The translations under genes and the position numbers were made by a program. Shown here piece after piece: positions 14,022 through 20,742 of a stretch of 32,876 nt of DNA (position 1 is its first letter; each line of letters starts with the position of its first letter). The stretch is from Chloroflexota bacterium (lineage in GTDB: Bacteria > Chloroflexota > Dehalococcoidia > CAUJGQ01), in assembly GCA_963170165.1 (NCBI GenBank), contig CAUJGQ010000068.1, forward strand, positions 1 to 32,876. The letters run 5' to 3'. The notes beneath the pieces were generated by a model that was not told the DNA's origin, did no database searches, and saw nothing but the letters and a program-made list of their open reading frames with translations.

Positions 14022-14438
14022 ATGGCCAGCATGACCGAGGCTCAGCGAGACGCCTTCCTCGCCGTCGCCCGCATTACCACCCTGGTGACCCTCTACCGAG
14101 ATGGCTCACCAGCAGCGGTGCCGGTGTGGCTGGACTGGGATGGCGCGGCTGCGCGATTCTTCACCGGCAGAGACAGCGAGAAGGTGAGGCGCATCCGTCG
14201 CGAGCCGCGCGTAACCCTGCTCATGGCCGAACCTGCGGGCGTGCCCGAGGCGTGGGTGTCCATTGAAGGTGACGCGATCGTCACTGACGAGGACCCGGTG
14301 CCGGTGTTCTCGGCGCTGGCGCGACGCTACTACTCTTCGGAGCAGGCCGAGCGGGCCATCGCCGGGTGGACCGCGATGGCCGGGCGGCTAACGGTGGTGA
14401 AGGTCACACCGCGGCGCATCCGCTCCAGCGTGGGTTGA
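14022..14438 (+). CDS. Pyridoxamine 5'-phosphate oxidase-like flavin protein
   Basis: 138-aa split-barrel protein of the PPOX family, which binds FMN (or F420) and often acts as a small oxidoreductase. Marks: the ARITTLVTLYRDGSPAAVPVW N-terminal strand region (15-35), FFTGRDSEKVRRIRREPRVTLL (start at 47), and WVSIEGDAIV (78-87). ATG at 14022 has GGAGGG 5 bp ahead, so longer readings from 13944 are discarded. It diverges from the cysteine-rich gene and is followed by rpsO. The substrate and whether the cofactor is FMN or F420 cannot be told. Confidence 0.88.
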   Translation: MASMTEAQRDAFLAVARITTLVTLYRDGSPAAVPVWLDWDGAAARFFTGRDSEKVRRIRREPRVTLLMAEPAGVPEAWVSIEGDAIVTDEDPVPVFSALARRYYSSEQAERAIAGWTAMAGRLTVVKVTPRRIRSSVG

Positions 14439-14446
14439 TTCTGTCC

Positions 14447-14476
14447 TTGCTCTCGCCGCCACCGTGACGGTAGGAT
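14447..14476 (+). promoter_or_regulatory. Likely rpsO promoter
   Basis: TTGCTC (14447-14452) and TAGGAT (14471-14476) separated by 18 bp, directly upstream of rpsO; transcription would start near 14483, about 25 nt before the ATG. Reasonable match to a sigma-70 type promoter in a GC-rich context. Confidence 0.45.
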
Positions 14477-14507
14477 GGACGTAAGTCTAACCGAGATCAA
14501 AGGACAC

Positions 14508-14774
14508 ATGCTCACAAAGGAACAGAAAGAAGGCGTCATCGGGGACTATAAGGTCCACGAAGGCGACACCGGCTCGGCCGAAGTCCAGGTAGCGATGCTC
14601 ACGCGGCGGATCAACGATCTGACCGGTCACCTGCGTGAACACAAGCATGACCATGCTTCCCGTCGCGGCCTGTTGAAGCTGGTGGGTCAGCGGCGGCGGC
14701 TGCTCGCCTACCTGAATAAGACCGACGTCGAGCGGTATCGCACCCTGATCGCGCGGCTGGGCCTCCGCAAGTAG
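14508..14774 (+). CDS. rpsO: 30S ribosomal protein S15
   Basis: Small-subunit protein that binds 16S rRNA early in assembly. 88 aa, the usual length. Family marks: [45 protein letters not shown] and the C-terminal [12 protein letters not shown] at 14508 with AAAGGA just ahead; an upstream in-frame ATG at 14475 would add 11 residues absent from the family. It is followed by pnp, the arrangement conserved in many bacteria, with a 421-bp spacer that holds a long hairpin. Confidence 0.97.
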
Positions 14775-14802
14775 CGGGGGCCTTGCCCTTTCCGGACGGT
14801 GA

Positions 14803-14885
14803 AGGAGGGGGTACGGGAATAGGGAAACCAGCACATGCCCCGCCGCGGCGTATGCGCCTGTTTCCGTATTTCCGTGTTCCCCCCT
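14803..14885 (+). promoter_or_regulatory. Long imperfect hairpin in the rpsO-pnp spacer (possible RNase III site)
   Basis: Bases 14803-14828 pair with 14860-14885: 24 of 26 positions pair (four of them G-U), with mismatches only at 14806/14882 and 14822/14866. The 31-nt interior can pair further (CATGCC against GTATG around a CGCCGCGGCG core). No U-tract follows, so it is not a classical intrinsic terminator. In E. coli the pnp leader carries an RNase III-cleaved stem through which PNPase controls its own mRNA; position and shape here suggest the same role or an rpsO 3' stabiliser. The pairing is seen in the sequence; the role is inference. Confidence 0.6.
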
Positions 14886-15195
14886 GTGCCCCGCAGCCGG
14901 GGCCTCGTCCGGAGCCCGTACCCGACAGCGTACGGATCGGCGGCTGACAGCTTGCAGCCCGGCCGCGGCCTAGTGCCATTGCAGCTTCACCAGCGCAGCG
15001 GCGCGGCGGCCATACCGGCCACGAAGCGCACGGCCACGACAAAGACACATTGCAGCCTACCGGGGAATTCTGCCATGGCGCGGCCCAGGACCGGGGCGCC
15101 ACGGCCAGGGATGCGTTGCGCTTGGACCACGCAAGAGCAGCGTACGCACAGTGAGCGCCCGCGCATGTCGCGGCGGGCCGTGAGGAAGGACAGGA
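14886..15195 (+). other. Untranslated pnp leader
   Basis: No convincing gene. It holds two short hairpins: GCCCC/GGGGC (14888-14903) and CCGTAC/GTACGG (14916-14935). The heptamer TTGCAGC appears three times (14952, 14979, 15050). The last bases carry the pnp ribosome site GAGGAAGGA. With the long hairpin just upstream, the whole rpsO-pnp spacer is about 420 bp, long for a bacterial operon, and points to RNA-level control. Confidence 0.45.
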
Positions 15196-17679
15196 ATGAC
15201 CGTACAGACCGTAACGACAGAGCTGGCGGGACGCACGCTCACGCTGGAGACCGGCCGGATCGCTGGGCAGGCAAACGGAGCAGTCACCATCCGCTTCGGT
15301 GATACCGTGCTGCTCGCCACCGCCACTAGCACCGGCCGGCCGCGGGAAGGAATTGACTTCTTCCCGCTCACCGTTGACTACGAGGAGCGGCTGTACGCTG
15401 TCGGCCGGATTCCAGGCAGCTTCTTCCGGCGCGAGGGCCGTCCGGGCACGGAGGCGATTCTTGATGCCCGCCTGACCGACCGGCCGCTGCGTCCGTTGTT
15501 TCCCAAAGGATTCCGTAATGAGGTGCAGGTGATTATCACCGTGCTCTCGGCGGACCAGGAGAATGACCCGGACACCTTCGGTACCGTCGCGGCCTCGGCC
15601 GCGCTTGCCATCTCTGATATCCCATTTGATGGGCCGGTCAGCTCGGTGCGGATCGGCTACCTCGATGGCGCCTATATCATCAGCCCGACGTTCGAGCAGC
15701 GATCCCGCAGCGAGCTGGACCTGGTGGTCGCTAGCACTCGCGACGCGGTGGTGATGGTGGAGGCGGGCGCCAACCAACTGTCTGAAGCGACGATCTTGGG
15801 CGGGATCCTCAAGGCGCACGAGGTCAACGGCCAGGTGATCGCGCTTCAGCAGGAGCTGGTGGCGCTGGCCGGGCAGCCCAAGCGAGCCTGGCAGGCGCCG
15901 GCCGCCGCTGCCGCTGAGCCGGCCGCCGAGGCCGCCACCAAGGGCCGCAGCCGTAAGAAGGCGGACGGTGACGGCGCCACGCCGCCGGCGGCCGCGCTCA
16001 GCATCGTCGACGCCGTGGCTGCCCAGATGGCCGGCAAGATGGATGACCTGCTAGCGGTGGCGAAGGACGAGCGCTCCGAGTTGCTGTACCAGCGCCAGCA
16101 GGAACTGGCCACCGCGCTTGGCGACCAGTATGAGCCGAAAGCGCTGAACGCGGCGCTGGACGCGCTGATGAAGAAGGCCGTGCGCAAGGCGATCCTCGAG
16201 GAGGACCGCCGCCCGGATGGCCGCCGGATGGACGAGATCCGGCCGATCACCTGCGAGGCCGGCATCCTGCCGCGCACCCACGGCACCGGGCTGTTCACCC
16301 GCGGCATGACGCAGGTGCTGACCATTGCGACCCTCGGCTCGGCGTCGATGGAGCAGAAGCTCGATACGCTCTCTCCGGAGGATACCAAGCGCTACATTCA
16401 TCACTACAACTTCCCGCCGTTCTCGGTCGGCGAAGTGCGGCGGATCGGCTCCCCCGGGCGTCGTGACATCGGCCACGGGGCGCTGGCTGAGCGCGCCTTG
16501 GAGCCGGTGATTCCCCCGTCGGAGGAGTTCCCTTATACCCTGCGGCTCGTCTCCGAGACGCTTTCCTCCAACGGCTCCTCATCGATGGCCAGTGTCTGCG
16601 GTAGCACGCTGGCGCTGATGGATGCGGGGGTGCCGATCAAGGCGCCGGTGGCGGGTGTGGCGATGGGCCTGGTGATGGGCGACGACGGCAACTTCAAGGT
16701 GCTGACGGATATCGCCGGCCTGGAGGACGCCTTCGGTGATATGGATTTCAAGGTGGCGGGCACACGCGAAGGCGTCACCGCCATCCAGATGGACATTAAG
16801 ATCAAAGGGCTGAGCGAGGATGTGCTGCGCACCGCGCTGGAACAGGCGCGCGTTGGGCGGCTGTTCATCCTCGACCGAATGGCAGAGACGCTGGCCGAGC
16901 CGCGTGGCGAGCTCTCCAAGTACGCGCCTCGCATGTTCCGTATTACCATCCCGGTGGAGAAGATCGGCACGGTCATCGGCTCCAAGGGGGCCACGATCCG
17001 CTCAATCATCGATGAGACCGGGGCGACCATCGATATCGAAGATGACGGCTCGGTGTTCATCGGCGCCAGCAGCGAGGAATCGGCGCGCAAGGCGATCGCG
17101 ATCATCGAGGGCCTGACCAAGGAGGTCGAGGTCGGCCAGGTCTATACCGGAAAGGTGTCGCGCATCCTGCCGTTCGGCGCCTTCATCGAGATCCTGCCTG
17201 GCAAGGATGGCCTGGTGCACATCTCTGAGCTGGCGTCGGAGCGCGTCGAGCGGGTCGAGGATGTCGTTCGTATCGGTGATGAGGTGATGGTGGTGGTGAC
17301 AGAGATTGACAATCTCGGCCGCATCAACCTCTCGCGCCGGGCGCTGCTCGATGGCGGCGACGGCACACCGCGTCCCCGACGCGAGGATGAGGAGTTCTTC
17401 CCCTCGCGGGATCGCGGCCCGCGTGGCGGCGGCGGCCCTGGCCGCGGTCGGGGTGGCTACGGTGGCGGTGGCGACCGTGGCCCGCGCGGAGGCGGCGACC
17501 GTGGGCCGCGGCCGGGTGGCCCTGGTGGTGATCGCGGCCCGCGGCCGGGTGGCCCCGGCGGCGATCGCGGTCCGCGGCCGGCTCCGCCGCCGAGCGGTGG
17601 TGACCGGGCGCCGCGGCCGGCGCCGCCGTCACCGGATCGCCCCGCTCCGCGTCCACCGTTCGGCGGCCCGCGCCGGTAA
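15196..17679 (+). CDS. pnp: Polyribonucleotide nucleotidyltransferase (PNPase) with extended C-terminal tail
   Basis: 3'-to-5' phosphorolytic exoribonuclease of the RNA degradosome; 827 aa against about 700-750 usually. Order: RNase PH domain 1 (about 1-215), helical linker domain, RNase PH domain 2 (about 335-560), KH domain (IPVEKIGTVIGSKGATI) and S1 domain (GQVYTGKVSRILPFGAFIE). Catalytic residues by alignment with E. coli D486/D492/K494 are D511, D517 and K519 (FGDMDFKVAG). Two additions: an Ala/Lys-rich insert at about 231-267 before the helical domain, and a 100-residue tail from about 724 made of repeated GDRGPRPGGPG-type units rich in Arg, Gly and Pro. The tail resembles RGG-type RNA-binding or disordered regions. 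Ribosome site GAGGAAGGA. Downstream of rpsO. Confidence 0.97.
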   Translation: MTVQTVTTELAGRTLTLETGRIAGQANGAVTIRFGDTVLLATATSTGRPREGIDFFPLTVDYEERLYAVGRIPGSFFRREGRPGTEAILDARLTDRPLRPLFPKGFRNEVQVIITVLSADQENDPDTFGTVAASAALAISDIPFDGPVSSVRIGYLDGAYIISPTFEQRSRSELDLVVASTRDAVVMVEAGANQLSEATILGGILKAHEVNGQVIALQQELVALAGQPKRAWQAPAAAAAEPAAEAATKGRSRKKADGDGATPPAAALSIVDAVAAQMAGKMDDLLAVAKDERSELLYQRQQELATALGDQYEPKALNAALDALMKKAVRKAILEEDRRPDGRRMDEIRPITCEAGILPRTHGTGLFTRGMTQVLTIATLGSASMEQKLDTLSPEDTKRYIHHYNFPPFSVGEVRRIGSPGRRDIGHGALAERALEPVIPPSEEFPYTLRLVSETLSSNGSSSMASVCGSTLALMDAGVPIKAPVAGVAMGLVMGDDGNFKVLTDIAGLEDAFGDMDFKVAGTREGVTAIQMDIKIKGLSEDVLRTALEQARVGRLFILDRMAETLAEPRGELSKYAPRMFRITIPVEKIGTVIGSKGATIRSIIDETGATIDIEDDGSVFIGASSEESARKAIAIIEGLTKEVEVGQVYTGKVSRILPFGAFIEILPGKDGLVHISELASERVERVEDVVRIGDEVMVVVTEIDNLGRINLSRRALLDGGDGTPRPRREDEEFFPSRDRGPRGGGGPGRGRGGYGGGGDRGPRGGGDRGPRPGGPGGDRGPRPGGPGGDRGPRPAPPPSGGDRAPRPAPPSPDRPAPRPPFGGPRR

Positions 17680-19395: not shown

Positions 19396-20430
19396 CTAGA
19401 CCTGCTTGCGCTCGATCATCGCTTCTGCGATCTGGATGGCGTTCAGCGCCGCGCCTTTGCGCAGGTTGTCTGAGACCAGCCACATGGCGAGGCCGTTGGG
19501 GTGCGACAGATCACGGCGAATGCGGCCGGCGTAAACAGGATCCGCGCCGGCTGTCTGCACCGGATGGGGGTAGCCCGCGACGGCCGGGTCATCAATCACG
19601 GCCATGCCCGGGAACGCCGCCAGCAGGGCGCGCGCCTGTTCCGGCGCCACCGGTTCCGCCAGCACGACATTGACGCTCTCGGAGTGGGAGACGTAGACCG
19701 GCACCCGCACCGTGGTGGCCGCCATCTGCAGATCAGGCAGGTGCATGATCTTGCGCGTCTCCCGCACCATCTTCCACTCCTCGGAGGTGTACCCTTCCTC
19801 TTTGAAGGAACCGATGTGCGGCAGCAGGTTGAAGGCGATCTGGTGCGGGTAGACTTCACCGGGGATGTTCGTGGCGCCATCGAGCGCCTGGCGCGATTGG
19901 TCCGTCAGCTCGCGCATGGCGGCCGCACCGGTGCCGGAGACCGATTGGTAGGTGGAGACGACCACCCGCCGCACCGGGCTGACCGGGTGGAGCGCCGCCA
20001 GTGCCATCACCAGCGGCGTGGTGGAGCAGTTCGGAATGGCGACGATCCGCCTGCCGGCGTCCAGGTCGGCTGCGTTGACCTCAGGAACAATCAGCGGGAC
20101 ATCTGGGTCCATCCGCCAGACGCCGGAGTCATCAATTGCCACCGCTCCTTCTCGGGCGGCAATGGGTGCGTACTCCTGCGAGATCTCGTCAGTGGCGGAG
20201 ATGAAGACAAAGTCGGCGCCCCGGATTGCCTGTGGGGTTGTCTCTTCAACGGTCAGGTCGTCACCGCGCACGCGAATGCGCGACCCAGCCGACCGCGCAG
20301 ACGCCAGCAGCTTCAGCGATTTGAGCGGAAACGGACGCTTTTCGATGATGTCTAGAAAGACCTTGCCCACTGCGCCGGTAGCGCCGATCACGGCGATGTT
20401 GTAGAGGCGTCCGTTTCCATTCGTATCCAT
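19396..20430 (-). CDS. asd: Aspartate-semialdehyde dehydrogenase
   Basis: Makes aspartate semialdehyde from aspartyl phosphate with NADPH, feeding lysine/DAP, threonine and methionine synthesis. 344 aa. N-terminal nucleotide-binding GATGAVG, catalytic Cys135 in IPNCSTTPL, acid/base His249 in RVPVYVSHSE, and substrate segment NIPGEVYPHQIAFN. The start is the ATG at 20430; no Shine-Dalgarno sequence is visible just upstream, so the message may be leaderless or poorly initiated. It lies 111 bp upstream of dapA on the same strand. dapB, on the same strand, is about 6.8 kb upstream, beyond two opposite-strand secreted-protein genes. Confidence 0.96.
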   Translation of the reverse strand: MDTNGNGRLYNIAVIGATGAVGKVFLDIIEKRPFPLKSLKLLASARSAGSRIRVRGDDLTVEETTPQAIRGADFVFISATDEISQEYAPIAAREGAVAIDDSGVWRMDPDVPLIVPEVNAADLDAGRRIVAIPNCSTTPLVMALAALHPVSPVRRVVVSTYQSVSGTGAAAMRELTDQSRQALDGATNIPGEVYPHQIAFNLLPHIGSFKEEGYTSEEWKMVRETRKIMHLPDLQMAATTVRVPVYVSHSESVNVVLAEPVAPEQARALLAAFPGMAVIDDPAVAGYPHPVQTAGADPVYAGRIRRDLSHPNGLAMWLVSDNLRKGAALNAIQIAEAMIERKQV

Positions 20431-20742
20431 GACGGCATGGTATCGTGAGGCGGGCGGGCGGGCAACGCGCGCGGCTCATGGGCCGCTGGCAAACGTCCTC
20501 CGCGCGGCGCCAGGTGCTCACCAGACTGCGCCTGATGCCCGAGCACTCGCTGCCCCAACACTCGGTGCTCCTCCCGCGGAGGGCATGGCGGACAGCGCGC
20601 ATCGGGGTGGCGCGCTGGCTGGTAGACCAGCTGGTCGGTACGCGCTGGCACGTACCAGTGACGAACCCTATACTTTGCACGCGCCCCAGGTTTCGGTTCG
20701 GTGACGCTGCACGCGCCGTGGCGTTGCCCCGGAGGAACCTGG
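20431..20742. promoter_or_regulatory. Divergent region between asd and the first secreted-protein gene (312 bp)
   Basis: No gene is seen. On the plus strand TATACT at 20669-20674 is a likely -10 for the secreted-protein gene, about 70 bp ahead of its ATG; the -35 is poor. Upstream of it are a perfect palindrome GCTGGT-AG-ACCAGC (20618-20631) and an inverted repeat GGTACG / CGTACC immediately after it, which could be operators. A GAGCAC / GTGCTC inverted repeat lies further left. I could not recognise a lysine riboswitch or T-box ahead of asd. Confidence 0.4.

Follow-up and report, generated by a model that had tools for sequence, protein, structure and literature searches.

A long, lineage-private hairpin between rpsO and pnp in a Chloroflexota genome, tentatively read as a boundary stem cut by RNase III

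Introduction

What does an exceptionally long hairpin do in the spacer between rpsO and pnp of a Chloroflexota bacterium? Stems in this spacer are a classic case of a gene product controlling its own messenger RNA; in E. coli, the autoregulatory step is PNPase acting on the stem. Passages in two papers describe the rpsO-pnp spacers of E. coli and Streptomyces coelicolor as holding a terminator followed by a hairpin that is cut by RNase III (PMC5872136, PMC10126417). An initial annotation, made from the sequence, had likened the Chloroflexota hairpin to the E. coli stem. We analyzed its pairing, its position, and its distribution among related genomes.

Results

The rpsO-pnp locus

The window, meaning the whole stretch of DNA analyzed (32,876 nt), is one entire contig of a genome assembly of 4.41 Mb in 213 contigs. 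The named relatives of its pnp belong mostly to Chloroflexota and Dehalococcoidia metagenome genomes, and also to Bacillota; we take the window's class to be Dehalococcoidia. The gene names given initially are correct: the rpsO product matches PF00312 (E 5e-36), and the pnp product carries two RNase_PH domains together with KH, S1, and PNPase domains. The rpsO reading frame is open from 14475, relatives align from codon 12 of that frame, and homology begins at 14508. Between the end of rpsO (14774) and the start of pnp (15196) lies a spacer of 421 nt. The same genome encodes RNase III (PF14622, 120 bits, G000:C32). The features of the locus are as follows.

14508 to 14774, + strand: rpsO, ribosomal protein S15
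14755 to 14787, + strand: stop-codon-spanning stem, 14755-14768 with 14774-14787, loop AAGTA
14791 to 14913, + strand: outer closing stem (14791-14799/14905-14913) with a small hairpin (14888-14893/14898-14903), both predicted from minimum free energy (MFE) only
14798 to 14890, + strand: long hairpin, stem 14798-14842/14846-14890, 45 positions ungapped, 3-nt loop
14891 to 15195, + strand: remaining spacer (pnp leader), no structure above chance
15196 to 17679, + strand: pnp, polynucleotide phosphorylase

The long hairpin is real and far beyond chance

The hairpin is real, unusually long, and far beyond what chance produces. Its arms as first annotated, 14803-14828 and 14860-14885, do form pairs at 24 of their 26 positions; 20 of these pairs are Watson-Crick and 4 are G-U, and the two mismatches are an A-C and a G-G. 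The additional interior pairing that had been claimed also holds, and 14803-14885 is the main part of an ungapped 45-position stem comprising 31 Watson-Crick pairs, 7 G-U pairs, 3 A-C oppositions, and 4 others, so that 38 of 45 positions are paired when G-U is included. Within it, runs of 15 bp (14807-14821/14867-14881) and 6 bp (14823-14828/14860-14865) are separated by one G-G mismatch. With scores of +2 for a Watson-Crick pair, +1 for G-U, and -3 for a mismatch, the stem reaches 48, a value equaled by none of 1,000 dinucleotide shuffles of the 421-nt spacer (maximum 40) and by none of 60 shuffles of the window (maximum 39). This is the best stem score both in the window and in a 266,558-base sample of its genome, where the runner-up scores 43. 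Across 29 rpsO-pnp spacers from the window's genome and class relatives, the best stems in the other 28 score at most 24. Folding of 14775-14920 yields an MFE of -81.2 kcal/mol (z = -3.86), which none of 200 shuffles matched. The hairpin escaped the automatic repeat finder, presumably because of its G-U pairs.

The second-strongest stem in the window (score 36; 20313-20432, arms of 26 nt, 68 nt apart) overlaps the 5' end of a - strand ORF.

The hairpin folds more stably as the + strand, which is the sense strand of rpsO and pnp (-51.7 versus -44.7 kcal/mol). G-U outnumber A-C oppositions 7:3 on this strand, a ratio that is not significant (7 of 10), and the pairing bias is weakly in keeping with what constraint at the RNA level would produce. 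In the predicted fold, the outer closing stem and the small hairpin form a junction around the long hairpin. The initial annotation was right that no T-tract follows, the tail being GTGCCCCGCAGCC; the hairpin thus lacks the form of a canonical intrinsic terminator, a GC-rich stem and then a T-tract, and a search of 14400-15260 returned no terminator-like or sigma-70-like site. Folding of 14895-15195 gave nothing above chance (MFE z = +0.74), and neither of the two covariance models described below (R1 and R2) matched there.

A stem spans the rpsO stop codon

The stop-codon-spanning stem has its 5' arm in the last rpsO codons (...G-L-R) and its 3' arm just behind the stop codon, and its weakly T-rich tail, CTTTCC, makes it terminator-like. 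Its score of 32 is the maximum among 215 gene ends in the genome sample, as delimited by crude gene calls (ORF length and codon-position GC). Stop-spanning stems recur in class relatives, where 12 of 30 rpsO genes score at least 20, against 12% with shuffled downstream sequence, a recurrence that rests on enrichment and not on covariation. The relatives' stems often have a better T-tail than that of the window, and in nine loci (L010, L021, L114, L210, L215, L217, L227, L228, and L232) the coding arm again encodes G-L-R. The long hairpin starts 10 nt after this stem, and both are present in the joint MFE structure (z = -4.60). We read the stop-spanning stem as a putative rpsO terminator or attenuator, in which case the long hairpin would occur only in read-through RNA.

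At the other end of rpsO, a sub-threshold match to RF00114, the S15 leader (28.7 bits; gathering score 39.5), sits around the rpsO start in another Chloroflexota genome (L173:1878-1997, - strand). S15 autoregulation may, on this sequence match, reach the Chloroflexota.

The hairpin is single-copy and lacks a counterpart in the sister genome

Within the order, the comparison comprised one other genome, G001, whose pnp is 64% identical. Its rpsO-pnp spacer has no counterpart of the long hairpin and no homologous stem. Between about 20 and 107 nt past rpsO lies an unrelated palindromic element of about 80 nt (L009:3935-4022) that is dispersed over 44 places in that genome. Judged by gene calls of the same crude kind, 13 of 20 copies (e.g., L152-L170) lie directly 3' of a gene in the sense orientation, and none of the 20 is clearly antisense within 60 nt. 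The element is perhaps a spreading terminator or 3'-end element.

We did not find the G001 element in the window's genome (best E 0.05). The long hairpin likewise has no second copy there: the best BLAST match elsewhere covers 16 nt (E 0.39), and a 21-nt arm with up to three mismatches allowed matches nowhere else, which rules out a repeat family in its own genome. The slot behind rpsO therefore holds different palindromes in the two genomes. In the 392 other class genomes, we found just short GC-rich matches, the best of 24 nt (E 1.1e-4); both the class set (393 genomes) and the phylum set (400) are samples from larger groups. As far as seen in these sequences, the hairpin appears to be private to its lineage. 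Searched against Rfam, it gave only matches of microRNA type and to RsmV, all scoring far under the gathering cut-offs. The 7-nt sequence GGGGCCT is directly repeated on its two sides (14777-14783 and 14899-14905); we considered a target duplication and set it aside because 7 nt is too short in such GC-rich DNA.

Elsewhere in the same genome, a 68-nt repeat occurs in two copies that are 90% identical (L132:57-123 and L132:11120-11187), the former overlapping a long palindrome that adjoins a gene 3' end.

A different, covarying stem precedes pnp elsewhere in the phylum

Scanning the spacers of relatives (7 of 111 loci were dropped for want of rpsO) revealed a different, conserved stem between rpsO and pnp in Thermomicrobia-type genomes. 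Six initial members, chosen by a plain stem scan of spacers and a shared motif (L054:2800-2866, L065:2817-2876, L071:2801-2859, L074:2842-2901, L092:2886-2951, and L093:401-460), have 27 predicted pairs, 15 of them with two-sided changes. The covariance model R1 matched 43 of 400 phylum genomes at E <=0.01, and 21 of the 30 loci fetched (L171-L200) have the match directly upstream of pnp. Nine of these 30 matches, with no pnp or rpsO in the fetched stretch, were left out of alignment A4 (L172, L176, L177, L189, L191, L193, L195, L197, and L198); the members of A4 used for the second model, R2, have R1 scores of 31.7 to 78.4. A 27-member alignment has 24 pairs, with 91.9% of cells paired and 17 pairs showing two-sided changes, counts that lean towards the model, since a model of this same structure served to find the 21 added members. 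Its covariation score is 0.520, compared with 0.185 for shuffled and 0.056 to 0.105 for slid alignments. The core, GG-ATTG...CAGT-CC, is nearly invariant, and the stem recurs across many Chloroflexota families outside the window's class. It lies a median of 51 nt before pnp over all members measured (range 26 to 248, usually 26 to 138), and 28 to 248 nt before pnp in the 26 members for which both spacer distances were measurable.

Rfam 15 gave no match to this stem at gathering scores in six loci and no pnp family at E 1 in five, and R2 matched none of 62 other pnp loci, mostly from Bacillota or class relatives and including E. coli. No description of a Chloroflexota rpsO/pnp hairpin appeared in the titles and abstract openings of the literature searched. 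Actino-pnp is an RNA located upstream of pnp. A passage of PMC2864571 lists it among the cis-regulatory RNA families of Actinomycetales, under a name taken from pnp, and the window has no match to it (RF01688), either at the gathering score or with E allowed up to 1. On comparative sequence grounds, the Chloroflexota pnp-leader stem is a candidate for a new family of cis-regulatory RNAs, comparable in kind to Actino-pnp. It is also the more solid and testable result compared with the window's hairpin.

The window is without this pnp-leader stem. Scored on the + strand with filters off, the long hairpin gets 7.0 bits from R1 and 3.4 from R2; like the pnp-leader stem, it occupies the rpsO-pnp spacer of a member of this phylum, and it has neither the core of that stem nor its position near pnp. 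In the window's class, R2 matched 5 of 393 genomes, and no fetched locus had rpsO or pnp. The segment GGGGAATT at about 15061 was considered as a relic of the pnp-leader stem and dropped for lack of model support.

The hairpin adjoins rpsO rather than pnp

The long hairpin begins 24 nt past the rpsO stop codon and leaves 305 nt to pnp; for the stem of E. coli K-12, the corresponding distances are 112 and 67 nt (L136). With these distances, the hairpin occupies a different place from the E. coli stem, contrary to the initial suggestion of a similar stem in the same place, and the two have no sequence similarity. What the loci share is a long spacer stem behind an rpsO terminator (a putative one in the window) in a genome with RNase III and PNPase genes. 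The S. coelicolor locus is likewise from a high-GC genome and has a spacer with a terminator and a hairpin; in the pertinent passages, that hairpin is drawn immediately before pnp, and RNase III cuts it at a 4/4 internal loop, which the window's hairpin lacks (PMC5872136, PMC10126417). As regards the size of the duplex, a passage of PMC5371410 gives 22 nt as the minimum target of RNase III, and the 15 + 1 + 6 positions around the single G-G mismatch, inside the 45-position stem, make up exactly 22.

Discussion

We tentatively interpret the long hairpin as a lineage-specific stem at the boundary of rpsO and pnp, probably cut by RNase III in read-through RNA, and give this reading a probability of roughly 0.4. 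In the scheme that we propose, the majority of rpsO transcripts would end at the stop-spanning stem (14755-14787) or be trimmed to it. RNA polymerase that reads through would place the 14798-14890 stem within a joint rpsO-pnp RNA, RNase III would cut that duplex and so part the two messages, and the pnp message would be left with a 5' end, made by processing, some 300 nt ahead of the pnp start. We infer the co-transcription, the cleavage, and any effect on the amount of PNPase; we observe the stem and where it lies, how improbable it is, the terminator-like stem ahead of it, and the RNase III gene. If polymerase does read through rpsO, cleavage by RNase III is likely on biochemical grounds, whether the stem was selected for it or not, and for that reason we put the RNase III-cut boundary stem first. 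The improbability of the stem, its + strand bias, a duplex of at least 22 positions, the RNase III gene, and the terminator-like stem all argue for it, as do the E. coli and S. coelicolor precedents, in the passages cited above, of a terminator with an RNase III-cut hairpin. Weighing against it are the hairpin's place beside rpsO, its absence from the sole other genome of the order compared, and the nonsignificant 7:3 bias of G-U. The distance to pnp is 305 nt, compared with 67 nt in E. coli and a median of 51 nt for the Chloroflexota pnp-leader stem.

Its closeness to rpsO (24 nt past the stop codon and 10 nt past the stop-spanning stem) would also suit a part of the rpsO 3' end, either a backup factor-independent terminator without a U-tract or a block to 3' exonucleases, acting in tandem with the stop-spanning stem and with no role for RNase III. 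The G001 element occupies the same slot and, by crude gene calls, is directly 3' of a gene and in sense in 13 of 20 copies, and several gene ends in the window's own genome, from calls of the same crude kind, have GC-rich hairpins lacking T-tails. A passage of PMC8355165 also proposes clustered hairpins, and hairpins that no U trail follows, as terminators. Yet the hairpin has no T-tract, the stems of usual terminators are far shorter, and in the genome sample, again with crude gene calls, the excess of hairpins behind genes is no more than a trend (p = 0.35 in the cleaner test, convergent versus divergent gaps); we regard a pure 3'-end role as possible but doubtful. We are similarly doubtful, by a shade more, that the hairpin is a remnant of a palindromic mobile or duplicated sequence, REP- or MITE-like, that inserted behind rpsO and serves no dedicated purpose. 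An ungapped 45-position palindrome with no homologue in the sister genome, whose corresponding slot is filled by a palindrome dispersed over 44 places, is what an insertion might leave, and REP/BIME-type dispersed palindromes are likewise intergenic and lie behind genes. Such sequences are multi-copy, however, whereas this one is single-copy in its own genome, and has no copy in 392 other class genomes beyond short GC-rich matches; nor did we find the G001 element in the window's genome.

A more direct link to pnp fares worse. The hairpin shares the spacer and a similar length with the Chloroflexota pnp-leader stem, and its arm GGGAATAGGGA is superficially like the conserved GGGAATTGGAG, but descent from that stem, with direct control of pnp, is highly improbable: scores of 7.0 (R1) and 3.4 (R2) bits, against R1 scores of 31.7 to 78.4 for members, largely refute membership, no fetched R2 match among the 393 class genomes lies near rpsO or pnp, and the hairpin is at the wrong end of the spacer. 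It is improbable, too, though less so, that the window's lineage lost or never had the pnp-leader stem and independently grew an unrelated long RNase III stem in this spacer, re-inventing the control of PNPase through a cleavable duplex with a new sequence in a new position.

For the initial interpretation, these results mean a division. A combined rpsO 3'-end and pnp processing site is plausible, given a long spacer stem and an RNase III gene, and its supposed E. coli-like place was wrong. The idea of an ancient, autoregulatory pnp control stem finds no support, as nothing corresponds to the hairpin in the sister genome and it fails Rfam and both pnp-leader models, and PNPase-linked autoregulation, with PNPase itself acting on the stem as in E. 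coli, is likewise unsupported.

The hairpin is new and lineage-private, and stems in the rpsO-pnp spacer are already a known kind. A stem in this spacer need not be ancient: here it is private as far as the genomes compared show, and the phylum at large has a different, strongly covarying one. Should RNase III indeed cut the boundary stem, the locus would offer a clear example of a regulatory structure that was replaced and not inherited.
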